Shown here one piece after another: positions 1 through 64,000 of a stretch of DNA of 64,000 nt. Source of the DNA: Styela clava (lineage: Eukaryota; Chordata; Ascidiacea; Stolidobranchia; Styelidae). Position 1 is the stretch's first letter. Each line of letters begins with the position of its first letter. The position numbers and the translations under genes were made by a program. The notes beneath the pieces were generated by a model. It saw only the letters and a program-made list of their open reading frames with translations, was not told the DNA's origin and searched no databases. The stretch lies in the NCBI RefSeq assembly GCF_964204865.1, contig NC_135254.1, positions 10,731,001-10,795,000 on the forward strand, read 5' to 3'.

Positions 1-191
1 TCATAAACCTCAATAAATTTATCAGGTGCGACCACAAACAACTACACAACAGTAATGAAAACGGGTAAATATCAGTTGTAAAAACCAGAAAGTCAGTGAG
101 CATATTGTACCACAAAATAGTAGTTCAGAAAATCGAATTATGCGCACTTGAGACTAATGTCTCTTATAATTTGTAAGCTATATAATCTTAC

Positions 192-3100
192 CACTAGAAT
201 TCGTTGTAGTAGTAGTGATTGCACTGATGGGAGAGAGAATGTTTATCTCCGTAGTTTTTGTGTCATTTGCAATGGCAGACAATGCGGAAGTATGTGTCAT
301 GTCAGTAGGAGTTGTAAATTCATGATATTTATTTGTTGTTGTCATTTCAACGGTTGAAGGGGTGGGCGTTGTTTCACAGGTAGTGTCTTTTGAACATTTG
401 GTCGTCTGAAGAAAGTAATTGTGATTTAGCAATATTTCGATTCAATATATGTACGATAATTTTTTATTTATTTCAACGGTTTTTTAAATCTGTATAATGT
501 TCTTCAAAAAGTTGAACAAATATAAAAATGCTCACAAAAATATTGATTCACATGCTAATGAAAAATATCGAAAGTGAATAATTTAGATGAATCAGAAACC
601 TTTTTGGTAATTCGTCAATAGCCAGGTCTTGCGACCTGAATCAGAAATATTGAAGATTCACTTTTGAAAGTGCAGCTTATACATTAATATAGTATAAACT
701 AATAAAAAAACATAGAATGATAATCATTTTTCTTTTAAGCACTTTAGAAGATCAAAAACTATTAAATTACTACAAAAAGTGGCTTTCCCTATTTTTTACC
801 TCAAAATTAGAACCAATGCAATTATTGGGCCCCATCCTGCTCGAGTCAATGCATGTCCGATTTCTTATTTTCATCATAGAGCTGCAGTAACATAAACTCC
901 ACGATGACCAGGTTTCCCAGTATTTCCCTACACAGTGTAAACATAATCATACGTACGATTCCTCTTTTTATTGATTTTATTCATGGTCCATATTCCAACT
1001 ATATCATATTCTAAACTTTATGCTCTTTCAATTTGTTGAATCTTACAACTAAATATAGATTCAGAGCCAGGTTTTTTTTGTCATAATTGAAACTAAGTTA
1101 AGTTGGAGTTCGTGTAAATTTATATTCCTTTTCACCGTTTGCGTTATATTAAATCTTATTTTTAACATTTTATACTGTTTTAAGCACACAGCAAAAGTAA
1201 ATTCGCGCTGGAGTTGAATGTATTGAAGCTATGTTGAATAAATATAGCAGTTTGACCTGTCACTTCATCACTTCCTATTTTTTTTTACTTTTATCAGAAA
1301 AATTATGCTAAACATTCGTCTCAACTCGGTTGTCAACAGACATTTTACTCACCGATAATGCGTTGACACACCAATCCTTTCAATCCTGTTGCTCCAGTGT
1401 CACAGTCCATCGTATGCCATAGAAGATTTGCGTCATAAGTTTTTTGTTCACCTATCGATACACAAGTCTGTGTTCCACTATCAGTATCATGATTGTTTGG
1501 TTCCCCTTCATCCCAACGAATGAATGAAAGGTTTGTTCCGTCGTTCCATTTAAACATCGACTTTGATTTGTCATAAACAAGTCCAATGTAGAATGTGTAT
1601 GGTTCTCCTGTAATAAGACATATCATATCGTCACGCTAATAACCGAATTGCGTAAGTCATTTTTGGCGATTTCGAGTTTTTTTTATAAAATAGGTATTTA
1701 TGTAATACTGCGCACCTGTCTGTTAAATCAGATTTTATTTTCAAGAATTCTGAAACCCATAAAAATGGAGATTTAGTATGACATGCACATTTGTGCAATT
1801 GTTTCGTCATAATGAATTATCATTGTTACAACAGGACTATTGTGACGTCACAAAGGAAAATAACCTCAGCGAAGTATTTTCGAGTTTTTGCATCTCGGAT
1901 TCTAGCTTAGCGCGTATTAATTTAAATTTATACTACAGTATAGGAAGACGTGCACTTGTGATATTCACTGTCCGAGTCCAATTCACCTTGGTTGGCTTTT
2001 ATATTGGGTGCATTGCTGTTTTATTCTTTATATTTATTCTTAGTCTAATTTCGGTGGGTGTGCAGGACATGTTATATTGATGAAATATATATTTTTAAAC
2101 ATAAAAAATAATGTAATTGAAACTGATTAGCTATTTTGGGGATTAGACATTGTAGATACTGAGAATTACATTCGTTTTTGGAATGTTTTGTTTTCAGGAC
2201 TGGTGCATATAGTAAAGTTGCAAAATTGCGTATGTCCCCAAGTCATACACACATTTCTGCCTAAGTCACAGTGCACCATTATGACGTCACTTAACTGCGT
2301 CATACAAATTAACTTAAATCCGGCTACGATCAAAAAATTGAACCATGGCAAATCATTGACTCTCAATGGCATAACAATATCATTAGGAAGTTTTTTACGT
2401 TTTTCTCAAAACTGCTAAAAATGACTTACGCAATTCGGTTATTAGCGTGACGATATTGTTTTATACTGCTAGGGCACGTCTAGACAAGTGTTTTAGCGAT
2501 GATCAATCGGTTGAAGCGTTAGCTCTAACTGTGTTGGCGTAGCAGATTACGCATCTTCGTTTCAACAGCCATCCCACGTCACCCGTGGGTGTAATGAATT
2601 GGTCAGAAAATGCCAAACAGTTATAGAATCTCCCTATATATTGTTAGATATCAGTGGTTTTTGTACAGGTCCGCGTTCGCGTCCTTGTGGGTGTCATATC
2701 CCACAGGGATCGGACTTATTGCATTTCGTTCGTAATGCCATCAACGACCGAAGTTATTATATCGCCGCAATACATACACATTCATTGACTTTCAATACTT
2801 ATAATATTACACGTACCTGATCCATCAAAAATAAGTGTTTTTAGAAATCCTTGAGTAATATCATCCTTTATTAATGCTAATTCACTTTCTTTATTTTTGC
2901 AAAAAGTTTTTGAATCTTTATAAGATCTTGTACTACCACCCGGTGAAACGTAATATTCATAATTTCCATTGGAAAACCAGTTTCCTCGATCTGTTTCACA
3001 AATACATCAAATAATTGAATAATATCAGTAACTTGAAAAATGCACAGTGAAAATGCACGGTGGAACGAGATGGCATCAATTATTGCCGGCACTTACTTCA

Positions 3101-6100
3101 ACATACCAAAGTGAAAAATAAAAAGAAACGTTGATATATTAACTCATTTAAATTTTCCGATCATAATCCGTTTTAGCACCTTTCGAATAGAGCGAATAGC
3201 ATAGTAAATAGCACGGCGTGATTCAGTGAAAATATTCGTAACTTTATTACAAAAAGATGTTTGTTTTGACGTGACTTATGTGAAGGAGATTGACCCATTG
3301 TTCATATATATCTTATCTCTTTTTTTGCAACGATTGTAAGAAGTGGTCAGTTTAATGGAAAATGAAGACGTAATAATCTAATTTTAAAATGAGTTATTCA
3401 TTCTCACTCAGTGTAGTCGGAGCTGTGGTCAATGAAGGCATAATTACATTGCAGGAAACGGATGGCGTGCAAATCTAAAAACAACGTTCGATATTTAATC
3501 ATGCATGTAGGTGTTTCAAAACCGAACTAACTATAAGTCCAAAATTCAATATTTCATGTAGAATGATCCAAAAATAGTTTTTCTGCGGCAATGAAATCCA
3601 AATTAATGGGGTCTGGACTGAAGGATTTGCAAGTTACATACAAAATTGGATTATGGAAATATTTTAATACGTCAATCAATCTGTTTAAATAATAACGAAA
3701 TAGACTAAACTGACTTGAATAAATTTACCTGGGTGGCAATGCCAGGTGTAGCTAAATAATATCGTCGATGAAGTTTGAGTACAAAAATCGATCAAACGAT
3801 TGCTATATAATGTAAGCGTGCCTCAACAATGTGTATGAGAAAAAATGTTATTCCCATCTGTTTATTATAGTTTTGGAACGACATGCTAGAACTTTATAAA
3901 ATCCTGAACTTGAATGTAATAGTTATTAATACAGCTAGATAATGAGCAAGAAATTTGATAGGAAACAAATTAATAATGAGTTATATATGTAAATAACGTT
4001 CACTTTGGACTGTGTTGCCGTATCATTGCATGAGTTTGGACCAATCCTTGAGCTGTCAACACAAGTTCGGTTACGCTGCCTTATTCCCGGGCATTCACAA
4101 CTTCCCCAAGATTCCCACGATCCCCAATTCCGGCCTGCAGAAACATACAGAGAAAAAAAGATTTTTATTTTCAACTAATATGATATCAGTAAATTTAAAT
4201 CAAGATAAACTGTTAGCATAGATGTGCGAGGTATAAATAGTGGCAAGATAACAATATTAAAACTTTTAAATCTTATCAGAATCGTTCCTGCACTAATAGG
4301 TAATAGTTAGTTTTGTACTGAATATTTATGATAAAATTCAGCTGGCAGGTTTATAGCATTTTTTTTATTTATCAAAAACTGAAAGTTTTGTTAACAGTAA
4401 ATTAATGATATTGTGCAACTACTTTCTTTAATAAACATAATTTATCCAATTTAAAACATTTAACTATATCTCCAAGTTAGTACCTACACTAAAGTCATAA
4501 GATTTTAACAGGAATGTTTATCTGAGATATCAGGGAGACGCTTTGAGTAATAAAGGCAATGATAATCATATACCAACGCTCACGGGCATACTACAATTCA
4601 AAAGCATTTGAATCAGGGGCCCGCTCACTGCCTCAAATTCGACAATACAAGTGCGAGAATATACTTAGATCGGGTCGGCACGCAGGTTCGAATCAGGGCC
4701 GGATTTAGACGATGTGAATCCCTGGGCCAGGGGCAAGCCCTGTCAAGCGTGCCGAACTTGGCACGCGAGCCCATTTATTCGGCACGCGAGCGAGGCTTCA
4801 GAAACGAAATCATTTTTCTTCCGAAAAAAAGTTTCAATACTCTGAATTATCTGTTGAAACTCTGCTTCCGTTTAATCATTATTGTTTGTTAACAATCCGT
4901 TATTTATTTAAATTCTTTTTGACCATTCATGACATATGGCTTCAAAGAAATATTTTATGACTTCACAACTGAGTGAGCTATCGACAAATTTGGTCGGCAC
5001 GCGGAAGAATTTTGTCATTAAATTCAGTCGATTTTGGCACGCGAGCCGGAAAAGTTGCCCTATGCCTAGGCTATGCTAATTGTAAGGGCCCTCTGTAACA
5101 ATGACGTCACATCAAATCTGTCATAACGACATATAAGTGATTGCAAGTTCTTGTATTATGATATCACAAGTTCAGTTTTTGAATTCTGTGAGTTACAAAC
5201 GTTTAGCTACCGCCAAGATACTTACGTACAGAACGTCATGGCACCAGAAAAGTCGACTTCATAAAAACTCGTTTATAATGAGCTCTGGCATAGTAAAAAT
5301 TATATGGAATATTACTTACATTCTCGGTTGATTAGATGTATCATTATATACAGAAATATATAGGTATTTTTTTCATAAAATTAAGATATTATTACGTTAA
5401 AAACTGTTCAGGTAGTTAAAAAATTTTTCAAGAGTTTTTCTAAGTTATACATATTCATTTATTCGGTCATATTTCTAATTTTCCAATTTTTCAATCGGTA
5501 AATATTTGGAATTATTACCTTCATTAAAAAAATATGAGAACTATAAAGTTTTAAACTGACATTATTCTGGAACAAGCCTTTACAATTCAAAAACGATTTA
5601 AAATGAATAATAGTTCAAAATTGATTGTCAAGTCCTTCGAAGTTAGAGACCCCAAGACTTTAGCCTACCTTGCCCAATAGTATATTCGGCCCTGGTTCGA
5701 ATCCCATGAGTGATGTGACAATGCGCAAGAGTGTTGGACTTCTCAACGTCATAGGGTGGTTCACGTAATGGCTTATCGGTTGCGTCTTCCTCCGCCGGCC
5801 ACGTTTGCAGACGCCTTGCGCTACAGCCTGAGAAGGCGTGTATGGGCAAGCCATCGATATTTGTGGTGTTTCGACGAGTTTATTGGGAATAAAAAGCAAT
5901 GGCAAGTTTCTACATAAGTTTTTCTTTGTTAGGTTTTAACTTATTAAATACAAAAAAATAACACAGCCATTTTGAACAAAACTGGCAAAAAACTTGACTT
6001 ACAACAATTCTCTTCAAACAAATCTCTGAATATATTGAAGCTATTATGAATAAACATAGCAGTTTTGCCTGTCACCTCATCACCTCATTTATATTTTTAT

Positions 6101-9100
6101 TTTTAATATAAGAAAAAAACGCTAAATATTCGTTTTTATTCGCTGTCGCAAGTTATTTCACTCACCGATACGTCGTTGACACACCAATCCTTTTGGTCCT
6201 GTTGCTCCTATGATACAGTCCATCGTATGCCATAGAAGATTTGCGTCATAAGTTTTTTGTTTACCAATCGATACGCAAATCTGTGTTCCACTACCAGAAT
6301 CATGATTGTTTGGTTCTCCTTCATCCCAAAGAGTGAATGAAAGGTTTGTTGCATCATTCCATTGAAACATCGACTTTGATTTGTCATAAACAAGTCCAAT
6401 GTAGAATGTGTATGGTTCTCCTGTAATAAAACATATCATATTGTTTTACAATGCTAGGATATGCTTAGACTAGTGTTTTAGTGAGGGTTAAGCGGTTGAA
6501 GCGTCAGACATAATTGTGATGGCCATGGCATTGCAGGTTATGCATCTCAGTTTCCCGCGCCACCCATGGGTGTAATATTTTGGTCAGACAATACCAAACA
6601 TCAATAGAAGCTCCTTATATATTGTATCTTATAGTTTTGTACAGTGATTTGTTCGAGTAAATAAGCGTTATATCCCGCAAGGAATGAAATTATTGCATTC
6701 CGTTCGTAATGTTATCAACGACCAAAGTTATTATATCGTCGCAGTACAAACATATTTATCGGCTTTAAATACTTAAAAGTAATGCACATACCTGATCCAT
6801 CAGAAATGAGTGTTTTTATAAATCTTTGTGTTATTTCATTCTTTATTAATGCTAGTTCGCCTCCTACATTTTTGCAAAATGTTTTCGAATATTCATAAGA
6901 TCCTGAACTACTACCCGGTGAAACGTAGTATTCATAACTTCCATTAGGAAACCAGTTTCCTCGATCTGTTTCACAAATGAAATATCAAATAAATGAATAA
7001 TATCAGTATCTCGAGAAATTCGCAGTGAAAATGCACGGTGGAACGAGATGGCATCAATTGCAGGCACTTGCTTTAACTTCAATACCGAAGTGAAAAATAA
7101 AGAGAAGCCTTGATATATTCACGCATTTAAATTTTTCGACTTTAAGCCGTTTTAGCACTTTTTGATTAGAGCGAATGGCATAGTAAAAAGCAACGACGTG
7201 ATTCAGTGGAAACATTCGTAACCTAATTACAAAAGAGAAGTTGGCTTCGACGTGACTTATGTGAAAGAGAATAACAAGCCCATTGTTTATATCTCTTTTT
7301 GCAACAATTGTAATAACTGGTCAGTTTGCTTGGAAATGAAGACGCAACAATACAATTTTAAAGTGAAGTTTTCATTCTCACCTGGTGGAGTCGGAGCTGT
7401 GGTCAATGAAGGCATAGTTGCATTACAGGAAGCGTCTGGCGTGCATATCTAAAAGCAACGTTCAATTTGTTCAATCGTACATGTAAGTGTTTGATTGGAA
7501 CTAACCGTAACTCCAGAATTCACGACATTATGAAAAAAGGAAGAATTTTTCCTCAACAATAAAATCGAAATTAATGGTGTCGAGACTGAAGGATTTGCAA
7601 GTCATATTTAAAATTACAATTGGATTATGGGATTATTTTAATACGTTAGTCAATCGGATTCAATTAATAACGAAATACGACTAATAACTGACTTGAATAA
7701 ATTTACCTGAGCGGCAATGCCAAGTGTAGCTTAATATTATTGTTGATGAAATTGAGTACAAAAATCTACCAAACGATAGTGTGCATGCGTAAAAATTTAT
7801 TCTTATTTGTGAGTTATAGTTTTGGAACGAAATCTTAATCAACATGCTACAACTTTATAAAATCCTGAACTTAAATTTAATAGTTATCAATAGAGCTAGG
7901 ATAAGTGCAAGCATTTTGAACGGAAACACAATCAAAATGAGTTATATATGTGAAACAAGTTTACTTCCGACTGTTTTGCCGTATCATTGCATATGTATGG
8001 ACCAATTCTTCCACTGTCAACACAAGTTCGGTTACGCTGCCTTATTCCCGGGCATTCACAACTTCCCCAAGACTCCCATGATCCCCAGTTCCAGCCTGCA
8101 GAAAAATACAGAGTAAAATGAGAGTTAAATTTTTTACAACTAATATGATATCGGTAAATTGTTAATGTAGTATAGACGGTAGAAACAATAGCATAGCTGT
8201 GCAAAGTATAAATAGTAATAATATGACATTATTGAAACTTTTGAACATTTCCAGAATCTTTCCTACACTCATAACTAATCAAAAGTTGCTAGTTTTGTCC
8301 GAGATACATATGATAAAATTCAGCTGACAGGTTTTGTTCAATTTTCTTCCATCAAAAACAGAAAGTTCTGCTGGCAGTAAATAAATGATATTGTGCAACT
8401 GATTTCTTCAATAAACATAATTTATCTAGTTGAATCTAAAGCATTGGACCTAGATAACCCAATTCTCATTTTCCGTAGAAGAATTTGCCCAAAGAAAAGT
8501 TATAGTCGCACTCACTCGGAATAGGAGATACTCGTATCTTGATTAAAATACGAGGAGTGTAATCTGAAGTAAGGTATTTTGATTTTTGATGGTGCAACAT
8601 ACACTATAGCGAATATCTGTTATATCGAAGTCAATGGCATTAAAATATATAAATAGTTATTTGCATAAAAAGGACATTTTCCACAAATTAAGTATACATT
8701 TATTGCAAACAGAGTTTGTTACCGATTAATCGTTGACAGACAAATCCAGTTGGTGCATTCGCAGCGCATTCGGAGTCATACCACGGTAGATTTGCATGAT
8801 ACGCATGCCACCACCCCATAGCAACACAATGTTCAAGTGGATAACTAGAAGGTTCTCCTGTGTTCCAATTAGTGTAGGTTATTTCTGAATTGTCCTTCCA
8901 TTTGAAGATATTGCTTGTGCCAACTTCCTTCAATCCAATATAAAATCCATATGGTGTTCCTGTAGAAAATAAAATGCTTTGGCGTAATAGAACGTTTTGT
9001 CGTGTGTAATATTTGTTGTGTGGCTGGTTGGGGCTGTTGGACATAATTGAATACATGTGCAAATATACGAAGACTGACGAATTAGAAATATTACGAATTC

Positions 9101-9535
9101 AATTAAACAAACGTATGAATGATTCTTGCGCAAATACCAAAACATTTTTATGACTGTGATGGTAAATAACCTTGAGCAAATTCATTTGGAGATTTTGGGT
9201 AAAACGTAAAATGTCCTATTTACCTGAGGTAGCTGAGACTTGATTTTGAATAAACGTTTGAATTTTGCTAGTTTTTATCATTGCCATCTCGCCATCATTG
9301 TTTTTACAGAATAATTTACCATCAGCATTTGATTTTAAATCTCCTTTTCCAGATACGTAGTATTGGTAACTCCCAAGTGCATTCCACTCACCTCTACCTT
9401 GTCGCAAAAATAAACAGTTTATGAATAAGCACATAATTTGAAAGACGTGATGACATATAATATATACCAACCTGCGCTAAGGACGGCAATCGTCCTAGCA
9501 ACTAATCCAATGTATATTAAAAATTTCTCTCTCAT
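192..9535 (-). CDS. CTR1: three-cassette CTLD-TSP1 receptor, 3' end outside window
   Basis: Thirteen exons with canonical splice sites and matching phases: 9535-9472 signal peptide; 9397-9224 and 8959-8723 CTLD1; 8095-7965 TSP1; 7448-7382 short Cys/Thr stalk; 6965-6792 and 6420-6166 CTLD2; 4134-4004 TSP1; 3474-3408 stalk; 2990-2817 and 1607-1353 CTLD3; 927-800 TSP1; 405-192 Thr-rich stalk. The joined frame is open for 690 codons. Approximate residues are signal 1-21, CTLD1 22-158, TSP1 159-202, stalk 203-224, CTLD2 225-367, TSP1 368-411, stalk 412-433, CTLD3 434-576, TSP1 577-619, mucin-like 620-690. CTLD2 and CTLD3 keep GEPNN (EPN type); CTLD1 has GEPSS. TSP1 exons show WGSWESWGSC and the RNRTC core. 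The stalk matches CTR4, so a CTR4-type membrane exon and tail are expected beyond position 1. The last two stalk copies differ at the donor: the second uses A before GTGAG. Predicted role, by inference, is a type I surface recognition receptor. Confidence 0.85.
4440..5925. repeat. Interspersed repeat in CTR1 intron, inverted copy at 51.0-51.7 kb
   Basis: This stretch between CTLD2 and the second TSP1 exon of CTR1 has a shorter reverse-complement relative at about 51010-51740 in CTR4. Both contain two tRNA-like B-box strings (GGTTCGAATC), here near 4684 and 5694. The copy here is about 0.7 kb longer and includes text rich in GGCACGCGAG strings at 4730-5050. No protein is convincing in it. Confidence 0.55.
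5640..5920 (+). mobile_element. tRNA-derived SINE-like unit
   Basis: It carries GGTTCGAATCCC at about 5694, a perfect match to the tRNA B-box consensus, with a plausible A-box region about 35 bases upstream. A related sequence occurs in the opposite orientation at about 51010-51270. The reading frames inside are not conserved between copies. I did not find clear target-site duplications or a poly-A tail. Confidence 0.5.
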
Positions 9536-10974: not shown

Positions 10975-11697
10975 TCAATTAGACTTCTTTTGCCACAATG
11001 ACATATTCATCACCTTTAGGAACAGTAACTGTCCTTTGTATTCTATTCTGACTGCCGTGGTCTTATCAATTTCCTCATATACATCCTGTTCACATGATTT
11101 AAAACTTGGATTGACGGGTGTTTCAACCTTAATGTAGTCATCTTCAAGACTCCCTTCTTCAGCTAGACATTGACGGAGTGCGCTCGAGACTACTTTGATT
11201 GTTGATTCACTTTGTATTTCAGCGAAAATTTCGTTTCGACTATCCACAGGAGAATTTCTATCGTCTATTAATATTGGTATTGTAGGTAAAATCATATTCT
11301 TTATGACAAATTTATTCTTATTTGAAACATTGTTGAGACTTTCTTTAGTTCTCCGGGATTCTTCGGTCTCTGTAGATTTTTGCTCGTATTCTATTGCACT
11401 ATATGGCATAATATCATTTCCTTTTTTTATGCCTGTGGCTTTGGGTAAGGTCGGCAAAGTACTGCGCTACAATATTTTGATTATGCTACTATTTTTGGTC
11501 TTTCTTCTCATTGAATTTTGTTTTGTTAGGATAACTTCCGGCGGCAGTACAACCTATAATGACACAGTTTTCATTTCCGCCATTATTATTGGGTTCTCCA
11601 GTAAAACATTTTTCATAAGATTCAATCTCGCCATCAATCCACGCAAAGAAGTTATTTCTCACTTTTTGTAAACCAATAAAAAAGCCATATGGCATAT
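10975..11697 (-). pseudogene. K1: truncated CTLD half joined to a Tyr-rich tail-like exon
   Basis: On the minus strand a phase-compatible acceptor at 11697 opens a CTLD C-terminal half with MPYGFFIGL and GEPNNNGG, ending before the final WND/Cys part. About 40 bases later a 160-codon open stretch (11457-10975) begins. It is acidic and has tyrosines in IMPYSAIEY, DDYIKV and DVYEEI, resembling a cytoplasmic tail. No CTLD N-half, signal peptide or membrane exon lies nearby. In K2 the base string after the CTLD half is a good donor (GTAAGA); here it reads GAAAGA. A 7-base loss relative to K2 shifts the last frame and removes a DEYVIV ending. It is most likely a decayed relative of the CTRs. An exon of a gene missed elsewhere is possible. 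Confidence 0.5.
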
Positions 11698-15573: not shown

Positions 15574-16187
15574 TCAGCCTTCGGCATCTCCCGTGACATC
15601 GGAATTCTGATCAGTTTCAGGTTTATTGACCGTTGCATAAGTTACTTCATTGAAGTTTGAAGAATCATCTTTTTTGGGTTTCTGTACAACAGCAAGGGTC
15701 ACTTTATTGTCGTCTCCATCTGAAGATATTTCCTTTTCATCAAAGAAGTTTTCTGATTGCGAAATTTTTTTAGAATCCTCAACATTGTGTTTTTGAACCG
15801 TTTCATAAACCACAGGGGAGTTCTCGTCAGGGAAACCAGAAACCTTAATTTTTTCACTCTTTTTTTGCTTATCAACAACAGCGTATTGAGTTTCTGATAC
15901 ATCTACCGCGTCCAAATCTTTTGAGGATTTGGATAACTTTTTCGATTTTGTCTTGATAACAGCAGTATATATAGCATTGTTGTTGCCTTCTGTGGTCACA
16001 TCGTTTATCTGATCTTGATGGTTATCGGCAATGGCGTAGAGGAAATCTTGCCCGTTTAATGAGTCAACTTGATCTTCGGGTAAAAGAGAATTATTGTCTG
16101 CCTGTTCATCAGATTTTACAAACGTCTGATAACGAAGAGTTTCCGTATTTTGAGAATTGTCTCGACTAGATACTACATCTTCGGGAT
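15574..16187 (-). CDS. CTR2 tail exon with ITIMs (exon-level entry)
   Basis: This single exon encodes residues 354-556. Relative to the CTR3 copy it lacks two bases near 15581: CTR3 reads GAAGGGGCTGAC and this reads GAAGGCTGAC. The result is an immediate TGA. The CTR3 version would continue about 18 residues further, through a PYANID motif. The CTR2 tail has therefore lost its last Tyr motif but keeps both ITIMs and the ITSM. Confidence 0.8.
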
Positions 16188-19100
16188 CTATAGCAGTAAA
16201 ACATGTTAGTGATATATAATAATGTAACACCTTATCTTGTTTTATGCTTCTCTGTGTAGTATTCCTATATGCTTTATATTCTCAATATATTTCCACAAAA
16301 TCACTGTTTTTCCTATTAGTCATATAGTTCAAATAAGATAATCATATGGTGCACATAGAAATGAGCATTCCTTTTTGTTTGTCATACATTTACTAGCATG
16401 TGGTAGACAGTAAAGTATAGGAATTCATCAACCCAGATACAATACGTTGACGTAATACTTTAAAGGAAGTTACATTAACTTACGATCTGACATTAGATCC
16501 CTCGGATTGAGATGATCTTCAATTTCCAACCCATGATTGTAATTGCCAAGCTCTGCTGTGTTTATGATTCCTTGTCCTCTTCTGAAAGCAAAACTTTAGA
16601 TTATATACATTCCATGTAAAATGAGTGAACCCTTAAAAGAATATTTGGTATTTGTTCACTATTCATAAGAGATATAATGTCATAATGTGGGATATATTAC
16701 CTTTTTTTGAGTTGCTTTGAAAGTATATAAACAATGATAAGCGCTAAAAGAAGAAATCCGCCGATAGTTCCCACGACTGGTCCGATGATTGATGTTTGTG
16801 CAGCGGGTGTAGATGGACGAAGAATACCAACCGTCGAAATGTCAGGAATTTCTGTGTGAGATAATATAAGAATTAATATATATGATCAGAAATTTGATTT
16901 AATACATTATGTTCATTTAGACAAGCCAACACATTTTCGCGAGCTGAAATTGAATGTAAAATTTTTTGCAACGCGTTGCTTGTTGATTGCTACTATATTC
17001 TGAATTGGTAATGACTGTAGAATTCTGCTCAAAGCATGTAATGTCGTACCTGCGAATGAAGAAGAAGTGCCTTGCAAGTTAAAGGTTGCGTTTGTCACAA
17101 CATACACACCGGCAGTCATGGTAGTCATTGCGTCGGAGGGTTCTTCGTTTGTGGGCGAGGTGGTTAACTCACTAGCAGTCGTAGTTAATGGAAATGTTGT
17201 TTCCGCAACAGTAGTCGTATAACAACTTGGGTCTTTTGTACAATTTGCAGTCTGTATTTTGTAATCAAGTTGTTTACATTATAGAGTCGCAATCGCGTTG
17301 CTCAATTTATTTGTACCCCTTTGTGATGTCGCATCGAGACGTTTCTAGACTTGCCGAAGTCGGCGAGCATCTTTGATTAAGATATGCGCCGTTTGTAACT
17401 GTAATTCCTAGATTATGGTTGTAAATGCAGTAGGTTGCGTATGACTTAGTTCAGTTACCGTGACCATTAGATTTTGTTTTTAGTTGTTTAGGGCTATTGC
17501 ATTTAGAATAGTTATATGTTTATGATGGAATAGGAATTATAGCTCCACTGAATATCCCTTATTGTTATTTATTTGCAGTTAAGTTACTTATCTTAATTGT
17601 GATTTAAGTTGTTCACTTTTGTAAAACCCGTTAGGGTACTCATTACCCGTTACGATACTAGATACCCATTACCCCGGTTTGGACGTATCGTATTTGTTAT
17701 CAAGACGTTATCTACACCTGCAAGTTACCTATATGTTTACTGTCATTATTTCTGGATTTGATGATTAACTTTCGACATTAACATTTAAAGTTCTGTGGAA
17801 CCTTTTCAATATAAGTTTCAAAGCAATTCAGATTGTTTGACAGTGTGGAACTGGGGAGGGATTTTGCAAGGTTCAACTAAGATCGTATCAAATTATTATT
17901 GTTTGCCGAGCAAAAGGTTCGGGGTCTACAGTACGCTAAAGTCAAACGCTAGAACTCTAGTCCAAATATCCAACACCGGCTGGCAAAATATTTGAGTCCC
18001 ACCACTGGTCATATATATATATGTAAAACAATTTTACTTCAAACTGTGATGTCGTATCGTTGCAAGCGTATGGACCAATTCTTCCGCTGTCAACACAAGT
18101 TCGGTTTCGCTGCCTCATTCCCGGGCATTCACAACTTCCCCAAGACTCCCATGATTCCCAATTCCAGCCTGCAGAAACATGCAGATTAAAATAATAGTTA
18201 TATATTTTACAACCGAGTATTTCGAAGCTATATGATATCAGTAAATTAAAATCAAGATGAACTGTTAATACATTATGAGCGGTAGAAAAAATAGCATAGC
18301 TGTGCAAAGTATGAATAGCGATGAGATGACATTATGAAAATTCTAAAACATTATCAAAATCTTTCCTGCACTCATGTCTCATAGCTAATCAAAAAAAGTT
18401 TTGTACTGAATATTTTAGATAAAATTTAGCTGACAGGTTTTTGGCGGTTTTATCGAAAACTGAGAATTCTTCTGACAGTAATTTAATGATATTGCGCAAC
18501 TGCTTTCTCTAATAAACATAATTTATCCAGTTAAATTTGAAACATCTGACCCAGTTAACCCAATTCTCATTTTTTTTGTAGGAGAATTTACTCAAAGAAA
18601 AGTCAGTCGCAATCACTCGTAAAATGTAAACTAGTGTCTGATTAAAATGCGGGCAGTCACAGAGATGCCAAGTGCTACTGAAATCAAACGGTATTTTGTT
18701 GGTGCAATAAGCAACAGCGAATACCTGATGATGTGATACTTTAAGCACTTTAAATCAATGCTATAATAAACTACGAGGCAGTAAACATGGCATGAATAAA
18801 ATTTACTAAATTGGAGTCAAATGTCATTAAAATATATAAACATTTATTTATATAAAGAAATAGGAATTGAGTGGCAAATTTAGTATACATTTATTACAAA
18901 CAAAGTTTTATACCGATTACTCGTTGACAGACAAATCCAGTTGGCGAATTCGCAGCGCAACTGACGTCATACCACGGTAGATTTGCATGATACGCGTTAA
19001 ACCACCCCATAGCAACACAAGGTTCAGGTTTATCACTAGACGGTTCTCCTGAGTTCCAGTTAGTGTAAGTTAGTTCCGAATTGTCATTCCATATGAAGGT

Positions 19101-19925
19101 ATTGTTTGTGCCAACTTCTTTCAATCCAATATAAAATCCATAGGGTTGTCCTGTAGACAATAAAATGCTTTAGAGCAGAATTTCCCAAACTTAGCTTAAT
19201 TGAGCAGTAAAAAGCATTAATGACGTGTGTGTTGCTACATAGATGAAACATTATCCTTCCTCATCCTTTCTCCTGGTTAGACACATAAATTGATTCGGCA
19301 TACGATAGGGGTCCGACAAAACTAAGATTCACAAATAGGGGTACGCGACCTAAAAAGTTTGGGAAACCCTGCTTCAGATTAATGGAAAGTTATGTAAGGT
19401 TGTATGTAAACAAGGCTGATTAGGACTGTTGGACATAATTGAAAACAGGTGCAAATATGTAAAGACTGTCGAATTAAAAATTGTCACACAAACGTATTGA
19501 GAATTCTAACACAAATTCCGAAACGCTTGAACAAAGATAAAGACCATAATGTTAAATAACCTTAAACAAATTCATTTCGGGATTTGGGGTAAAACGTGAA
19601 ATGTCCTGTTTACCTGAGGTAGCTGAGACTTGATTCTGAATAAATGTTTGAATCTCGCTAGTTTTTATCATTGCCATCTCACCATCATTGTTTTTACAGA
19701 ATGTTTCGCCATCAGCATATGGTTTTATATCATCTTTTCCAGATACGTAGTATTGGTAACTTCCAAATGCATTCCACTCACCTCTATCTGGTCGCCAAAA
19801 TAAAGAGTTTGTGAATAAGCACATAATATGAAAGACCGGATGATATATGATATATACCAACCTGCGCTAACGACGGCAACCATCCAAGCAAATATCCCAA
19901 CGAATATCAAAAATTTGTCTTTCAT
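15574..19925 (-). CDS. CTR2: CTLD-TSP1 receptor with ITIM/ITSM tail
   Basis: Eight exons: 19925-19862 signal; 19787-19614 and 19150-18914 CTLD; 18168-18038 TSP1; 17251-17050 Thr-rich stalk; 16851-16701 membrane; 16581-16484 juxtamembrane; 16187-15574 tail. Phases agree and the frame is open for 556 aa. Residues: signal 1-21, CTLD 22-158, TSP1 159-202, stalk 203-269, membrane span about 291-313 followed by KQLKKR, cytoplasmic 314-556. The CTLD has GEPSS and WYD instead of EPN and WND, so classical Ca-dependent sugar binding is doubtful. Tail tyrosines: Y372, Y403, Y426, Y454 (TQYAVV, ITSM), Y480 (VVYETV, ITIM), Y536 (VTYATV, ITIM). Position 517 is a Leu in VTLAVV where a Tyr would make another motif. 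ITIM/ITSM tails are known to recruit SHP-type phosphatases, so an inhibitory receptor is inferred. It faces VF0 head to head. Confidence 0.88.
19176..19371. mobile_element. Short hAT-like MITE in CTR2 intron
   Basis: The left end reads CAGAATTTCCCAAAC and the right end GTTTGGGAAACCCTG, so the termini are imperfect inverted repeats. The flanks CTTTAGAG and CTTCAGAT agree at six of eight bases, as expected for an old 8-bp target duplication. The same insertion sits in CTR3 at 39171-39356, so it predates their duplication. Confidence 0.6.
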
Positions 19926-24583: not shown

Positions 24584-25400
24584 CGATTGATCGTTGACAG
24601 ACAAATCCAGTTGGCGCATTCGCAGCGCATACCACGTCATACCACGGTAGATTTGCATTGTACGTGAGAAACCACCCAATAGCAACACAAAGTTCAAGTG
24701 CATAATTAGAAGGTTCTCCTGTGTTCCAGATAGTGTAAGTTAGTTCCGAATTGTCATTCCATATGAAGGTATTACTTGTGCCAACTTTCTTCAATACAAT
24801 ATAAAATCCATAGGGTTGTCCTGTGGATAATTAAATGCCTTAGCTTAGAGTAATAATAAGTTTTGTTGTGTGTAATATTTGCCGTATATAACCATGGCTG
24901 ATTGGGGCTGTTGAACATAATTGGAAACATGTGCGAACACTTGTATACTGATGAATTAAGAATTCATAAACCAACGTATGGGGATTTCTCGCGCAAATCC
25001 CCAAACCGATGAGCAAAAGATTCTAATGATCATGATGATAAATAACCTCAAGCAAATTCATTCAGGGATTCAAGATAAAACGTGAAATGTCCTATTTACC
25101 TGAGGTAGCTGAGACTTGATTCTGAATAAACGTTTGAATCTCGCTCGTTTTTTTCATTGCCATCTCACCATCATTGTTTTTACAGAATGTTTCAGCATCA
25201 GCATATGGTTTTATATCATCTTTTCAGGATACGTAGTATTGGTAACTTCCAAATGCATTCCACTCACCTCTACCTGGTTCGCAAAAATAAAGAGTTTATG
25301 AATAAGCACATAATATGAAAGACCGGATGATACACGATATATACCAACCTGCGTTAACGACGGCAATCATCCAAGCAAATATCAAAAGTTGCTCTTTCAT
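24584..25400 (-). pseudogene. CTR pseudogene: signal and CTLD exons only
   Basis: Exons: 25400-25349 (signal peptide, four codons shorter than its relatives), 25273-25100 (CTLD N-half) and 24820-24584 (CTLD C-half, open, GEPSNYAL). In the N-half the usual GTA TCT GGA AAA reads GTA TCC TGA AAA, a nonsense codon after YYVS. No TSP1, stalk, membrane or tail exon follows; the fold-back element lies there instead. Its position opposite VF0 shows it is the remains of a head-to-head pair. Confidence 0.75.
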
Positions 25401-29503: not shown

Positions 29504-29820
29504 CTATACAATATAATCATGCCTGAGTCCGGGATCACAAGACTAGGAATAAAATTTAGCGTTTCGCTTGTTTTACCAAGAGCATCCCACCCTGTTGTAT
29601 ACAAAAGTTTTTACTTTTGTCGAAACTCCTTATGTCATCAGCTTTAGATACATAATATTCGATATTTTTATAGTCTCTGCCAACTCCCACGACGATCTAT
29701 TTAGAGAAAAAACTTTGGTACACTGGTTGTGTACATTAAAATTTATATAAAAAAAAACTCAATCGTCTTTTGGTTTTCAAAAATTTGAGATTAATATTTT
29801 TGAAAAATCATTTTCTCTGG

Positions 29821-36880: not shown

Positions 36881-36949
<69 letters not shown>

Positions 36950-37987: not shown

Positions 37988-38029
<42 letters not shown>

Positions 38030-39906
38030 AAACAATTTTACTTCCGACTGTGATGCCGTATCGTTGCAAGCGTATGGACCAATTCTTCCGCTGTCAACAC
38101 AAGTTCGGTTACGCTGCCTCATTCCCGGGCATTCACAACTTCCCCAAGACTCCCATGATCCCCAATTCCAGCCTGCAGAAACATGTAGATTGAAATAATA
38201 GTTATATATTTCACAACCGAGTATTTCGAAGCAGTATGATATCAGTAAATTTAAATCAAGATGAACTGTTGATACAATATGAGCGGTAGAAAAAATAGCA
38301 TAACTGTGCAAAGTATAAATAGCGATGAGATGACATTATGAAAACTTTAAAACATTATCAAAATCTTTCCTGCACTCATAGCTAATCAAAAAAAGTTTTG
38401 TACTAAATATTTTAGATGAAATTCAGCTGACAGGTTTTTGGCGGTTTTATCGAAAACTGAGAATTCTTCTGACAGTAATTTAATGATATTGCGCAACTGC
38501 TTTCTTTAATAAACTTAATTTATCCAGTTTAATTTAAAACATCGGTCCCGGTTAACCCAATTCGCAATTTTTGGTAGGAGAATTTACTCAAAGAAAAGTC
38601 AATCGCAATCACTCGAAAAATGTAAACTAGTGTCTGATTAAAATGCGGGCAGTCGCAGAGATGCCAAGTCCTACTGAAATCAAACGGTATTTTGATGGTG
38701 CAATAAGCAACAGCGAATACCTGATGATGTGATACTTTAAGGACTTTAAATCAATGCTATAATAAACTACGAGGCAGTAAACATGGCATGAATAAAATTT
38801 ACTAAATTGGAGTCAATGTCATTAAAATATATAAATATTTATTTGTATAAAGAAATAGGAAATGAGTGGCAAATTTAGTATACAATAATTACAAACGAAA
38901 TTTTTTACCGATTACTCGTTGACAGACAAATCCAGTTGGCGAATTAGCAGCGCAATTGACGTCATACCACGGTAGATTTAAAAAATAAGCGTTAAACCGC
39001 CCCATAGCAACACAAGGTTCAGGTTTATCACTAGACGGTTCTCCTGAGTTCCAGTTAGTGTAAGTTAGTTCCGAATTGTCATTCCATATGAAGGTATCGT
39101 TTGTGCCAACTTCCTTTAATCCAATATAAAATCCATAGGGTTGTCCTGTAGACAATAAAATGCTTTGTAGCAGAATTTGCTAAATTGAGCAGTAAAAAGC
39201 ATTAATGACGTGTGTGTTGCTACATTGATGAAATATTATCCTCCCTCCTCCTTCCTCCTGGTTCGACACATAAATTGATGCGGCATATGATAGGGGTCCG
39301 ACAAAACCACGATTCACAAATAGGGGTACGCGACTTAAAAAGTTTGGGAAACCCTGCTTCAGATTAATGTAAAGTTATGTAAGGTTGTATGTAAACATGG
39401 CTGGTTAGGACTGTTGTACATAATTGAAAACAGGTGCAAATATGTAATAAATGACGAATTAAAAATTCTCAAACAAACTTATTGAGAATTCTAACCCAAA
39501 TCACGAAACGCATGAACAAAGATAAAGACCATAATGTTAAATAACCATAAGCAATTTCATTTCGGGATTTGGGGTAAAACGTGAAACGTCCTGTTTACCT
39601 GAGGTACCTGAGACTTGATTCTGAATAAATGTTTGAATCTCGATCGTTTTTATCATTGCCATCTCACCATCATTGTTTTTACAGAATGTTTCACCATCAG
39701 CATATGGTTTTATATCATTTTCTCCAGATACGTAGTATTGGTAACTTCCAAATGCATTCCACTCACCTCTATCTTGTCGTAAAATAAAGAGTTTATGAAT
39801 AAGCACATAATTTGAAAGACGTGATATATAATATATACCAACCTGCGTTAACGACAGCAATCATCCAAGCAAATAATTCAGTGTATATCAAAAGTTTCTC
39901 ATTCAT
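33126..39906 (-). CDS. CTR3: CTLD-TSP1 receptor with long mucin stalk and truncated tail
   Basis: Exons: 39906-39843 signal; 39772-39599 and 39145-38909 CTLD; 38172-38042 TSP1; 37280-37214 stalk; [damaged CTLD half 36609-36503, skipped in this model]; 36408-36281 second TSP1; 35830-35005 mucin-like; 34220-34070 membrane; 33950-33853 juxtamembrane; 33298-33126 tail. Skipping the damaged exon keeps phase and gives 682 aa: CTLD 22-158, TSP1 159-202, stalk 203-224, TSP1 225-267, mucin 268-542, membrane exon 543-592, tail 626-682. The mucin exon is four times as long as in CTR2. A C-to-T type change gives TAG after FLYVIADNH, leaving only the LRYQTF and FLYVIA tyrosines. The mucin donor (CGA|GTAAAT) is my choice and is the weakest junction. 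It pairs head to head with VF1. It may be a functional short-tail receptor or an early pseudogene. Confidence 0.72.
36503..36609 (-). pseudogene. Broken CTLD N-half exon in CTR3
   Basis: Starts with a normal acceptor and RGIWFPNGSYEYYVS, aligns to the CTR1 CTLD2/3 N-half for about 32 residues, then reads FCKKVC and TAG. The rest of the exon and the whole CTLD C-half are missing before the next TSP1 exon. This is a remnant of a second cassette like those in CTR1. Confidence 0.7.
36881..36947. repeat. (GACA)n microsatellite
   Basis: About 17 tandem copies of a 4-base unit, in a CTR3 intron. The Cys/Ser/Val-Leu repeat frame across it is an artefact. Confidence 0.95.
37808..37987. mobile_element. 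180-bp hAT-like MITE in CTR3 intron
   Basis: Starts CAGTGGTGGAATTCA and ends TGAATTTCATCACTG, near-perfect inverted ends. The flanks GTTATATA and ATTATATA agree at seven of eight bases. The CTR1 intron at the same place (near 7943) is uninterrupted. CTR2 has a related, more degraded stretch ending near 18008. Confidence 0.7.
37990..38026. repeat. (TA)n microsatellite
   Basis: Uninterrupted AT dinucleotides directly after the MITE, expanded compared with the short TATATA at the CTR1 empty site. Confidence 0.95.
39171..39356. mobile_element. hAT-like MITE in CTR3 intron, orthologous to 19176-19371
   Basis: Same insertion point as in CTR2. The left terminus is eroded (CAGAATTTGC); the right end GTTTGGGAAACCCTG is intact. 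Confidence 0.55.
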
Positions 39907-49366: not shown

Positions 49367-52300
49367 TTAATTGATGTACGGATGTTCTTTTGTTGTGCTA
49401 TTATTCATTTCTTCGTATTGATGATCTCCGTCTTTTATTTTCTCATAATTATGCGGGATTTCATAATTTTCTTCTTTCTCTTCTCTTAACTCATAATTTC
49501 CGGAGTTCAGTTGTGATGTTTGAATTTCATCAAAGTTTTCATAATAACTCGGGACGTCATTAACAACCCTATTCATCTCTGAAAGACGTTGTGGTTGAGT
49601 TGCGATTTTTTGAGAATTCCTTCAGTAAACAAAAAATAAGTTAGAATTAATTAATAAGTAGGATTTTAAATAAGAAACATTGGATTTGTTTTCGGAATTG
49701 CTTCTACCATAGAGGAGTTAGACAAAACAATCGACGAAAATGTTAGAGCCCAGTATTGCAGACATTGTCCCAGACATTGAGATTGCGCATACAGCTGTAT
49801 AAAGAGACACACCTTACTGATTCAATTAAGAGTGAATACTCCAAATTTTCGGAAAATATACACATTTTGTTGTAGTATCGAACATTTCTCACCTCATTTT
49901 TTTGTTTCTACAAATCAGCGAACCAATTCCAAATAGAATGATTGCAAGAATCAATGTGACTATGGATGAAATAATTGCAACCAATAAATTGTCGTGGCCT
50001 GCAATATATTTCAACATATAGTAAGAAGAAGCATAAACGTTAAAAAAATTATCAGCATTGAACACAGGTTAAACATGAGAATCAGAAAGTCAGTGAGCAT
50101 TTTATGTAACCACAAAATAGTAGTTTTAAAAACTCTGATTTTGTGCACTTAAGACTAATGTCTCTTATAATTTGTAAGCTATATAATCTTACCACAAGAA
50201 GTCGTTGTAGTAGTAGTGATTGCACTAGAGGGAAAGAAAATGTTTATCTTCGTAGATTCTGTGTTATTTGCATTGGCAGACAATGTGGAAGTATGTGTCA
50301 TGTCATTGAGAGTTGTAAATTTATGATAAATATTTGTTGTTGTCATTTCAGCAGGCGCCGCGGTGGACGTTGTACTACAGGCAGTGTCTCTTGAACAATT
50401 GGTCGTCTGAAGAAAGTAATTGTGTTTAGCAATTTTTCGATACAATATATGTACGATAATATTTGTATATTCCAACATTTATTTAAATCCGAAGTTTAAT
50501 GGTTGGACGTTCTTCAAAAAGTTAAACAAATTTAAAAATGCTCACAAAAATATTAATTCACACGCTTATGAAAAATAACGTCGGGCGCCCTGAATAAGAA
50601 CTACTAGATATTCACTTTTACGACTGCGGCTTATACGCTGTGAAATAGTAAAAACTATTCACACAACATAGAATGATGATCCTTTTTTTTTGAACCTTTT
50701 AGAAAATCAGAAATTATTAACTTACTACAAATAATGGCATTTTTTTTATTATTTCTTACCTCAAAATTAGAACCAATGCAAATATTGGGCCCCGTTCTTC
50801 CCGAGTCAATGCATGTTCGATTACGTACTTTCATCATTGAGCTGCAGTTACATGTACTCAACGATGACCAGGTTTCCCAGTATCTTCCTGCACAGTGTAA
50901 AGATTTAAAACAAAAGTTTTTTTGCCTGTTTTGATTAGAATGGCTGTATTTTTGTACGTAGTAAATAGGTTTAAACTTAAATAGGAAAAATTGCCAATTG
51001 CTTCTTATTCGCAATAAACCCTTCGAAACTCTACAAATATCGATGACTTGCCCATACACGCCTTCTCAAGCTGTAGTGCAATACGTCCGCAAACATGGTC
51101 GGCGGAGAAAGACGCAAACGATAAGCCATTAAGTGAACCACTCCGTGTCGACGAGAAGTCCAACACTCTTGCACATTGTCACATCCCTCATGAGATTCGA
51201 ACCAGGGGCGACTATACCATTGGGCAAGGTAGGCTAAAGCCTTGAAGCCTCTAACCTCGTAGGCCTTAACAATCAATTTTAAGCTCATATTCACTGTAAA
51301 TCCTTTTTGAATTGTGAAGCCTTCAGAGTTCCAGAATAATGTCACTTTAAAACTTTATATTTTTATTATTCACGGTAATAATTCCAAATATTTACCGATT
51401 GAAAGATTAAAAAATTTGAAATATGGCCGAATAAATGATTTTGTAATAATACATCAACTTGAAATCCCTATTATGTTATATCCCATGGTTTAAATTTGTC
51501 CCAGATTCGAACCTGCATTCCAGCCGATCTAAGTATATTCTCCATTATTGTATTAATGCACTTGTTTTGTCGAATTTACAAGCGGTGACCGGGCTCCTGA
51601 TGCAAATGTCTTTAGATTGTAGTAGGCCCGTGAGAGATGTTACATGATTTTTCTTTTTTTTTACTCAAAGCGTCTCCCTGATAACTCAGATAAACATTCC
51701 TGTTAAAATCTTACGACTTTAGTGTTGGTACTAAGTTGGCGATATAGTTGCACAATGACAGTGAAACTTGAAGCAAACATTATAATAATCATTTATGCAC
51801 TAATATTTAATCAAGAGTAGTTAGTTTTGAACGGAATATTTATGATAGAATTCATAGTCGCACTCACTAGGAATAAAAAAAAATCGTATCTGATTAAAAT
51901 ACGGGCGGTCGCTGAAATGCCAAGTGCCACTGAAATCATACCGTATTTTGTTGGCGCAAAGAGCAACAGCGAATACCTGTTGATGCGATACTTGAAGTTA
52001 TTTAAATTAATGTTATAAAGTTTAAGTAAAATAACGATCAGTAAACATTGGTATGATTTAAATGAACTAAATTAAAGTCAATGGCATTAAAATACATAAA
52101 TAGTTATTTGTATAAAGAAAAAATGACATAATCTACAAATTAAGTAGACTTATTACATTAAAAGTTTGTTACCGATTAATCGTTGACATACAAATTCAGT
52201 TGGTGCATTCGCAGCGCAATCGACGTCATACCACGGTACATTTGCAAAATACGCGTTAAACCACCCCATAGCACCACAAGATTGGGTACTCTCACTAGAA

Positions 52301-52993
52301 GGTTCTCCTGAGTTCCAGTTAGTGTAGGTTAGTTCTGAATTGTCATTCCATATGAAGGTATTACTTGTGCCAACTTCCTTCAATCCAATATAAAATCCAT
52401 AGGGTTGTCCTGTGCACAATAAAATGCCTTATCTTAGGGTAACGTTTTGTCGTGTGTAATATTTATCCAATATGAACATGGCTGATTGGGGCTGTTGAAC
52501 ATAATTGGAAACATGTGCGAACACTTGAATACTGATGAATTAAGAATTCATAAACCAATGTATGGAGATTTCTCGCGCAAATCCCAAAACCCATGAGCAA
52601 AAGATTCTAATGACCATGATGATAAATAACCTTAAGTAAATTCATTCAGGGATTTGAAATAAAAAGTGAAATGTCCTATTTACCTGAGGTAGCTGAGACT
52701 TGATTCTGAATAAACGTTTGAATCTCGCTCGTTTTAATCATTGCCATCTCACCATCATTGTTTTTACAGAATGTTTCACCATCGGCATATGGTTTTATAT
52801 CATCTTTTCCGGATACGTAATATTGGTAACTTCCAAATGCATTCCACTCACCTCTACCTGGTTCGCAAAAATAAAAAGTTTATGAATAAGCAAATAATTT
52901 GAAAGACATGATATATAGTATATACCAACCTGCGTTAACGACAGCAATCATCCAAGGAAATAATCCAATGTATATAAAAAGTTTCTCCTTCAT
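49367..52993 (-). CDS. CTR4: compact CTLD-TSP1 receptor with YxxM/YxN tail
   Basis: Seven exons: 52993-52930 signal; 52857-52684 and 52409-52173 CTLD; 50887-50760 TSP1; 50406-50193 Thr-rich stalk; 49998-49893 membrane; 49619-49367 tail. Phases agree and the frame gives 391 aa. Residues: signal 1-21, CTLD 22-158, TSP1 159-201, stalk 202-272, membrane span about 277-299, tail 308-391. The CTLD has GEPSS, WYD and a Gly where relatives have Val after the conserved Cys (SCGAMG). The TSP1 has WETWSSL, missing the third Trp. The tail is unrelated to CTR2: Y334 in YENF, Y350, Y360, Y366 in YEKI, Y376 in YEEM, Y389 in a final YIN. YxxM is known to bind PI3K p85 and YxN to bind Grb2-type SH2 domains, so an activating or adaptor-recruiting role is inferred. 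The membrane span has no charged residue. Head to head with VF2. Confidence 0.88.
51010..51740 (-). mobile_element. Inverted relative of the 4.4-5.9 kb repeat, in CTR4 intron
   Basis: On the minus strand it aligns with 4440-5925, including both B-box strings (complements near 51196 and 51503). It occupies the intron between the CTR4 CTLD and TSP1 exons. Its frames are not conserved with the other copy. Confidence 0.55.
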
Positions 52994-62752: not shown

Positions 62753-64000
62753 TTAATTGATGTACGGATGTTCTTTTGTTGTGCTATTATTCATTTCTTC
62801 GTATTGATGATCTCCGTCTTTTATTTTCTCATAATTATGCGGGATTTCATAATTTTCTTCTTTCTCTTCTCTTAACTCATAATTTCCGGAGTTCAGTTGT
62901 GATGTTTGAATTTCATCAAAGTTTTCATAATAACTCGGGACGTCATTAACAACCCTATTCATCTCTGAAAGACGTTGTGGTTGAGTTGCGATTTTTTGAG
63001 AATTCCTTCAGTAAACAAAAAATAAGTTAGAATTAATTAATAAGTAGGATTTTAAATAAGAAACATTGGATTTGTTTTCGGAATTGCTTCTACCATAGAG
63101 GAGTTAGACAAAACAATCGACGAAAATGTTAGAGCCCAGTATTGCAGACATTGTCCCAGACATTGAGATTGCGCATACAGCTGTATAAAGAGACACACCT
63201 TACTGATTCAATTAAGAGTGAATACTCCAAATTTTCGGAAAATATACACATTTTGTTGTAGTATCGAACATTTCTCACCTCATTTTTTTGTTTCTACAAA
63301 TCAGCGAACCAATTCCAAATAGAATGATTGCAAGAATCAATGTGACTATGGATGAAATAATTGCAACCAATAAATTGTCGTGGCCTGCAATATATTTCAA
63401 CATATAGTAAGAAGAAGCATAAACGTTAAAAAAATTATCAGCATTGAACACAGGTTAAACATGAGAATCAGAAAGTCAGTGAGCATTTTATGTAACCACA
63501 AAATAGTAGTTTTAAAAACTCTGATTTTGTGCACTTAAGACTAATGTCTCTTATAATTTGTAAGCTATATAATCTTACCACAAGAAGTCGTTGTAGTAGT
63601 AGTGATTGCACTAGAGGGAAAGAAAATGTTTATCTTCGTAGATTCTGTGTTATTTGCATTGGCAGACAATGTGGAAGTATGTGTCATGTCATTGAGAGTT
63701 GTAAATTTATGATAAATATTTGTTGTTGTCATTTCAGCAGGCGCCGCGGTGGACGTTGTACTACAGGCAGTGTCTCTTGAACAATTGGTCGTCTGAAGAA
63801 AGTAATTGTGTTTAGCAATTTTTCGATACAATATATGTACGATAATATTTGTATATTCCAACATTTATTTAAATCCGAAGTTTAATGGTTGAACGTTCTT
63901 CAAAAAGTTAAACAAATTTAAAAATGCTCACAAAAATATTAATTCACACGCTTATGAAAAATAACGTCGGGCGCCCTGAATAAGAACTACTAGATATTCA
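62753..64000 (-). CDS. CTR5: 3' part of a CTR4-type receptor
   Basis: Tail exon 63005-62753, membrane exon 63384-63279 and stalk exon 63792-63579 are visible; the next upstream exon (TSP1) should lie just past the window end. All three encode the same protein sequence as CTR4, including YEEM, YEKI and the terminal YIN. The junction phases match. The CTLD of this gene is not visible, so whether it differs from CTR4 in the ligand-binding part is unknown. Confidence 0.82.

Follow-up and report, generated by a model that had tools for sequence, protein, structure and literature searches.

Do the genes clustered in a 64,000-nucleotide stretch of the Styela clava genome (contig NC_135254.1, here C5, positions 10731001-10795000; hereafter the window) encode paired receptors, in which similar ectodomains stand on different signalling ends? 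An earlier note on this DNA, made from its letters alone, had claimed a common ectodomain plan of C-type lectin-like domain (CTLD), thrombospondin type 1 module (TSP1) and Thr-rich stalk. To this plan it joined two unrelated tails, one with immunoreceptor tyrosine-based inhibitory and switch motifs (ITIM and ITSM; here the I tail) in the genes CTR2 and CTR3, and one with YxxM and YxN motifs (here the Y tail) in CTR4 and CTR5. In this study, we analysed the window and searched the assembly (376.6 Mb). The genes probably form a tandem array of type I paired-type receptors whose two unrelated tails would have inhibitory and stimulatory outputs, respectively. The paired-type architecture is well supported: ectodomains of low synonymous divergence (dS 0.15-0.22 between I and Y genes in CTLD-A) stand on different signalling ends in one cluster, and ITIM or ITSM patterns are carried by CTR2 and the other open I tails. 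The opposite signalling is predicted from the motifs.

The array spans 335 kb, with the window inside it, and holds 24 copies of one CTLD exon. In the genome search, the second (C) exon of CTLD-A gave 45 matches at E<=1e-5; the 24 copies, at an identity of at least 73%, all lie at C5 10.51-10.85 Mb. The tail of CTR2 used as query (15 matches) located eight I tails at C5 10.547-10.845 Mb, one of them on the forward strand, and the membrane-tail query of CTR4 (31 matches) located 16 Y tails at C5 10.511-10.807 Mb, both tails being confined to the array at E<=0.01. The plan described in the earlier note extends, then, far past the window. Assigning each CTLD-A copy to the tail beyond it gave 15 Y genes, eight I genes and one pseudogene, counts that rest on positional pairing, with the ectodomains at 10704, 10717, 10811, 10826 and 10838 kb not fully read. 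In the window, the receptor genes are on the reverse strand and show five CTLD-A starts, those of CTR1 to CTR4 and that of a previously unlisted pseudogene at 25 kb.

The gene models were assembled by junction reading, and splicing and topology were deduced from phase, splice sites and hydropathy. Every junction in the models of CTR1 to CTR5 is GT-AG and in phase. Within the window and C5:10490001-10690000, canonical sites were present where expected at 155 of 158 acceptors and at all 129 donors; of the three missing acceptors, two belong to Y tails whose alignment holds one extra codon and the third to a relic. The models, in window coordinates, are the following.

15575..19925, reverse strand: CTR2, I-type, 8 exons, open model of 536 amino acids
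CTR2 ectodomain exons, reverse strand: 19925-19862 signal peptide; 19787-19614 and 19150-18914 CTLD-A; 18168-18038 TSP1-A; 17251-17110 stalk
CTR2 signalling exons, reverse strand: 16851-16701 membrane; 16581-16484 juxtamembrane; 16187-15575 ITIM/ITSM tail
49368..52993, reverse strand: CTR4, Y-type, 7 exons, open model of 391 amino acids
CTR4 ectodomain exons, reverse strand: 52993-52930 signal peptide; 52857-52684 and 52409-52173 CTLD-A; 50887-50760 TSP1-B; 50406-50193 stalk
CTR4 signalling exons, reverse strand: 49998-49893 membrane; 49619-49368 tail (YENF, YELR, YEIP, YEKI, YEEM, PYIN)
33127..39906, reverse strand: CTR3, I-type ectodomain and membrane with truncated tail, 10 exons, model of 682 amino acids stopping at TAG
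CTR3 5' exons, reverse strand: 39906-39843 signal peptide; 39772-39599 and 39145-38909 CTLD-A; 38172-38042 TSP1-A; 37280-37214 linker
CTR3 3' exons, reverse strand: 36408-36281 TSP1-B; 35830-35005 stalk; 34220-34070 membrane; 33950-33853 juxtamembrane; 33298-33127 tail to TAG
62754..63792, reverse strand: CTR5, 3' part only; 63792-63579 stalk; 63384-63279 membrane; 63005-62754 Y tail
192..9535, reverse strand: CTR1, 13 exons in the window, open over 690 codons, running off the window
CTR1 exons, 5' part, reverse strand: 9535-9472 signal peptide; 9397-9224 and 8959-8723 CTLD-A; 8095-7965 TSP1-A; 7448-7382 linker
CTR1 exons, middle, reverse strand: 6965-6792 and 6420-6166 CTLD-B; 4134-4004 TSP1-A; 3474-3408 linker
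CTR1 exons, 3' part, reverse strand: 2990-2817 and 1607-1353 CTLD-B; 927-800 TSP1-B; 405-192 stalk

CTR1 is also Y-tailed, with a membrane match at C5:10730862-10730969 and a tail at 10730319-10730573, directly left of the window. This tail exon is one of two open Y-tail exons that follow CTR1 within C5:10728193-10730588; the other, some 2 kb further on, may be an alternative last exon. The inner CTLD-B modules of CTR1 were considered as separate genes and this was rejected, as no signal-peptide exon was seen by eye ahead of them and the linker exons restore the phase. The signal peptide, CTLD and TSP1 exons of CTR5 lie past the window, at C5:10795146-10797379, and their protein sequence equals that of CTR4; the part of CTR5 claimed for the window reduces to its stalk, membrane exon and Y tail.

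CTLD, TSP1 modules and Thr/Ser-rich stalks were confirmed, together with the two unrelated cassettes of membrane and tail exons. Whole-protein Pfam scans of CTR1, CTR2 and CTR4 matched Lectin_C (PF00059, cut-off 22.6 bits) with 127.8, 56.0 and 54.4 bits and E values of 3.7e-37 (three stretches), 7.6e-15 and 2.4e-14, respectively; neither TSP_1 nor any Ig or sushi domain was listed by these scans at E<=0.1. The TSP1 (PF00090) modules are divergent, one exon alone being above the cut-off (23.0 versus 21.6 bits). When they were cut out with their last cysteines, five of the seven matched at E<=1 (best 2e-6), and six cysteine columns are invariant across all seven. Since the last two of these cysteines are encoded at the beginning of the linker or stalk exon that comes next, that exon belongs to the TSP1 fold. 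Units of CTLD, TSP1 and linker, three in CTR1 and one each in CTR2 and CTR4, start and finish in phase 1 and could therefore be gained or lost in frame. Regarding the calcium/sugar residues, CTLD-A reads EPS and WYD, and CTLD-B reads EPN without WND. Serine and threonine make up 42-45% of the four stalk exons measured. The order along the chain (CTLD N-terminal, membrane helix past the stalk, tail C-terminal) indicates by hydropathy a type I protein; the signal peptides were called by eye, and the N-terminus of CTR2 was the only one to reach a hydropathy of 1.6.

As for the signalling ends, the three-exon ITIM/ITSM-type tail proposed for CTR2 was borne out, with its exons mapped and two ITIM patterns and one ITSM pattern found. 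This tail holds four Yxx[ILV] motifs, whereas shuffles average 1.0 and 0.85% of 2,000 have at least as many; it is cut by a frameshift 17 residues ahead of the end of its relatives and lacks a 21-residue motif repeat present in the other five open I tails. Each of the six open I tails holds four to eight Yxx[ILV] motifs (shuffle means 1.0-1.65, the count being reached by no more than 0.85% of shuffles per tail) and has ITIM patterns, with none or one ITSM pattern. Constraint on the I tails is weak: the ratio of nonsynonymous to synonymous divergence (dN/dS) is 0.59 overall, 0.47 around the tyrosines and 0.70 elsewhere. The same tail had been ascribed to CTR3, and there the claim fails. In the tail exon of CTR3, codon 58 is an in-frame TAG in place of the glutamine codon of CTR2, and a TAA and a deletion follow; therefore, it encodes no ITIM or ITSM. 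CTR3 was rejected as an ITIM receptor, and an inhibitory role for it is not supported.

All 16 Y tails are open. Among them YEIP, YE[EK]I and PYIN were kept in 16 and YxEM in 15, while the tyrosine was retained at the YELR site in 11 and at the YENF site in 10; YxN other than PYIN occurs in two. YENF was rejected as a conserved YxN site, as it is not kept across the Y tails. The block from YEIP to PYIN has a dN/dS of 0.35, versus 0.71 in the preceding part of the tail. Taken by itself, the CTR4 tail has no more YxxM or YxN than chance allows (as many in 15 and 22% of shuffles, respectively), and the weight given to them comes from their conservation in paralogs. What had been claimed for CTR4 holds, then, for a separate membrane exon and for YxEM and PYIN. 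The Y tail was also considered as an immunoreceptor tyrosine-based activation motif (ITAM) and rejected, an ITAM being present in none of the 16; no hemITAM was found in the 16 either. The pattern YxxI-x(6-8)-YxxM, with the spacing of an ITAM and a terminal Met, is present in 15 of them. SH2 domains of Src-family kinases prefer YEEI, those of PI3K YxxM, that of Grb2 YxN and that of Crk YxxP.

The tyrosines of both tails could instead be YxxPhi sorting or phagocytic motifs of scavenger or endocytic receptors, the tails routing cargo differently and sending no opposing signals. YE[EK]I, YEEM and YAxV fit the YxxPhi consensus, the best-scoring solved relatives of these CTLDs are the macrophage mannose receptor and other multi-CTLD receptors, and CTR1, among other genes, contains repeated modules. 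Nevertheless, sorting signals usually come in one or two copies, unlike the four to eight Yxx[ILV] of the I tails with their one to four ITIM patterns, and PYIN and YEIP fall outside YxxPhi. We consider this explanation unlikely.

Given two tails, are the ectodomains shared between the genes that carry them? The pooled I-versus-Y dS was 0.146 for the N exon of CTLD-A (60 pairs), 0.218 for the C exon (65 pairs) and 0.271 for TSP1-A (28 pairs), as opposed to 1.69 for TSP1-B (36 pairs, lowest 1.13). DNA matches of CTR2 and CTR3 with CTR4 cover 2.4 kb or more ahead of the start codon and extend into the intron past CTLD-A, and no DNA match of at least 120 nucleotides was found between their 3' halves. 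Because of the dS contrast and the extent of these matches, young 5' halves appear joined to old, distinct 3' halves, a pattern that paired families should show; it must be cautioned that I and Y genes may never have shared one TSP1-B module. In our reading, exchange of the 5' ectodomain between tail classes occurred, but rarely.

The start of a CTLD loop, EPS, aligns with the GEPS of a mannose-receptor CTLD, and we take the region from EPS on to be the ligand region. The loop was delimited as 23 codons, from EPSS to before PWY, with bounds chosen after seeing the sequences. Over 17 CTLD-A sequences, its dN and dS were 0.237 and 0.118; dN/dS was 1.99 in the loop and 0.39 in the remainder of CTLD-A (16 rows). 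By parsimony, amino-acid and silent changes were 60 and 6 in the loop versus 119 and 70 elsewhere (Fisher p 8e-6), and one of 20,000 random codon sets was as extreme; conversion disturbs trees. These data suggest, without settling it, diversifying selection on the loop.

In the mechanism that we propose, each gene would encode a signal peptide, CTLD-A, a variable number of CTLD-B and TSP1 modules, a Thr-rich stalk, one helix and one of the two tails. The loop would bind a variable ligand. The I tail strings together Yxx[IV] motifs, ITIMs and ITSMs among them; once phosphorylated, it would attract SHP-type phosphatases and so restrain the cell. The Y tail would directly recruit Src-family kinases, PI3K and Grb2-type adaptors and stimulate it. 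Recombination or gene conversion would keep the 5' ectodomain exons alike across I and Y genes and leave the 3' halves distinct, which could let the two outputs respond to one family of ligands. A broader reading, which we put forward only tentatively, is that of a separately evolved, natural killer (NK)-complex-like tunicate locus. In it, conversion would share ligand-binding 5' exons between inhibitory and self-contained stimulatory tails and the loop would be under diversifying selection, possibly for discrimination of self and non-self or of microbes by blood cells.

Several observations weigh against paired receptors of opposite output. The loop bounds were post hoc, and the bootstrap interval of the loop dN/dS (0.98-4.94) reaches 1, with 2.9% of replicates at or under it. 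Tail type clusters on the CTLD-A tree, which tells against free exchange of ectodomains (two changes for I, with 5 of 500 shuffles as low; three for Y, with 17 of 500), four of five I-gene CTLD-A sequences fall in one clade (97/93) with the fifth separate, and a single clade of all five was not rejected (p-AU 0.077). Conservation of the tyrosine motifs was measured between paralogs, very recent ones included, and in just four of the six open I tails is the strict ITIM count matched by fewer than 5% of shuffles. Two of the eight I tails are truncated, and in three of the 13 Y genes with ectodomain read (10514, 10610 and 10679 kb) an ectodomain exon is decayed or interrupted by a stop. Finally, the usual vertebrate activating devices are absent: there is no ITAM or hemITAM in the 16 Y tails, and the membrane helices examined, those of CTR2, CTR3 and CTR4, have no charged residue. 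This absence would suit tails that are both stimulatory or both modulatory, in the manner of phagocytic receptors, the split reflecting different adaptors and no on/off pairing. The classes are, moreover, not perfectly clean, with ITIM patterns in three of the 16 Y tails, and ITSM-type motifs can be activating or inhibitory. Yet ITIM patterns occur in all six open I tails, one to four in each, and YxxM in 15 of 16 Y tails versus none of the six open I tails; we regard this alternative as rather improbable.

Plain tandem birth-and-death would explain the likeness of ectodomains by recent duplication, with tails that have no maintained roles. Besides the truncated CTR3 and the decayed or stop-bearing ectodomains just mentioned, the first three of the following four elements agree with it.

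24585..25400, reverse strand: pseudogene, signal peptide and CTLD-A with an in-frame TGA
10978..11692, reverse strand: relic of a third receptor type, partial CTLD at 11692-11552 (Lectin_C 25.5 bits) and a different Tyr-bearing tail frame at 11466-10978
26818..29696, reverse strand: second third-tail relic, frameshifted, with CTLD pieces
36509..36610, reverse strand: orphan first exon of CTLD-B inside CTR3, 82% match to the CTLD-B N exon, 34 residues

Against it stand the open tails (16 of 16 Y and six of eight I), the dN/dS values of tails, CTLD core and TSP1, all under 1, and the dS contrast between CTLD and TSP1-B, and we find it very hard to credit. Paired-type receptors of opposite output remain our preferred reading, with CTR3 no longer supported as an inhibitory member.

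Ahead of the next gene, no TSP1, membrane or tail match was found for the pseudogene, nor was a second exon partner found for the orphan CTLD-B exon. Third-type relics recur in the array, also at C5 10542 and 10680 kb, none of those seen belonging to a complete gene. Beside the pseudogene, window positions 22453-23983 hold a mobile element-like inverted repeat with arms of 370 nucleotides (82%) and an inner pair of 167 nucleotides (96%). CTR4 and CTR5 share a gapless block of 4,719 nucleotides at 99.8% identity (window 48696-53414 versus 62082-66800) that reaches the edge of the compared DNA, the flank on its other side being 92-96% alike; the block is a very recent copy or conversion, an assembly duplicate being less likely. 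One Y-type gene, at C5:10619696-10635076, has grown to hold a single CTLD-A, three CTLD-B and six TSP1-B modules, seemingly through tandem duplication within the gene. Neither Rfam families nor tRNAs were found in the window, and Pfam gave no family in five other open reading frames of this stretch.

Beyond the tandem set, the next-best relatives of CTLD-A (53-55%) are at C18:15692660-15702694, C5:10485599 and C5:10849471. Genome-wide, at least 149 Lectin_C matches were obtained, from the 150 candidates scored out of 697, many in tandem clusters, which indicates a very large CTLD repertoire. To our knowledge, genes of glycosyl hydrolase family 6 (GH6) are absent in animals other than tunicates. 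A GH6 exon was found here on C9 (42.4 bits, cut-off 27), which makes a tunicate origin of the DNA likely; COX1 was searched for in the assembly and gave no match. GH6-containing genes are reported in tunicates (PMC7464555; PMC6523144).

If the tails act as their motifs predict, the sister group of vertebrates would have evolved paired on/off recognition anew, out of lectin and TSP1 parts and with a stimulatory tail independent of an ITAM adaptor. In addition, the array would make the evolution of such pairs testable, as the steps to be expected lie together in it: ectodomain exons common to both classes, separate tails of old age, the loss of an ITIM tail to a stop (CTR3), recently copied genes (CTR4 and CTR5) and a ligand loop seemingly under selection. 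No CTLD-TSP1 paired family was found in the literature searched, which did not extend to figures, subscription journals and preprints, and one viral-contig scan gave no CTLD-TSP1.

Vertebrate paired receptors (KIR, LILR, Siglec, CEACAM and NK-complex lectins) resemble the array in their clustered genes, similar ectodomains and distinct signalling ends. Their activating members usually employ ITAM adaptors through a charged membrane residue, or an ITAM of their own, whereas the array has a long tail of its own (YEIP/YEEI/YxxM/YIN) and an unrelated ectodomain plan. NK-complex C-type lectins are type II with one C-terminal CTLD, in contrast to the N-terminal CTLD and C-terminal tail found here. 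The mannose receptor family, which provides the best CTLD sequence match among solved structures, differs in having no TSP1 and an endocytic tail. Within tunicates, the CD94-like lectins BsCD94 and CiCD94-1 are also CTLD receptors of blood cells, and the Botryllus one is described as type II with a CTLD, unlike the type I CTLD-TSP1-stalk proteins of this tandem array (PMC5465252). The fester/FcoR loci of Botryllus schlosseri are likewise clustered multigene receptors of a tunicate with two tail types and Yxx[ILV] tyrosine cores. ITIM or activating-type tails already occur there within one family (PMC12065747), so that the novelty claimed in the earlier note has to be tempered. By the same source, the Botryllus receptors have Ig/sushi ectodomains and FcoR works with a second chain, while in the array CTLD and TSP1 are on one chain and the Y tails have no hemITAM (0 of 16). 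Most likely, then, the array would function like vertebrate paired receptors and Botryllus FcoR but belong to neither, differing from them in ectodomain, topology and stimulatory tail.

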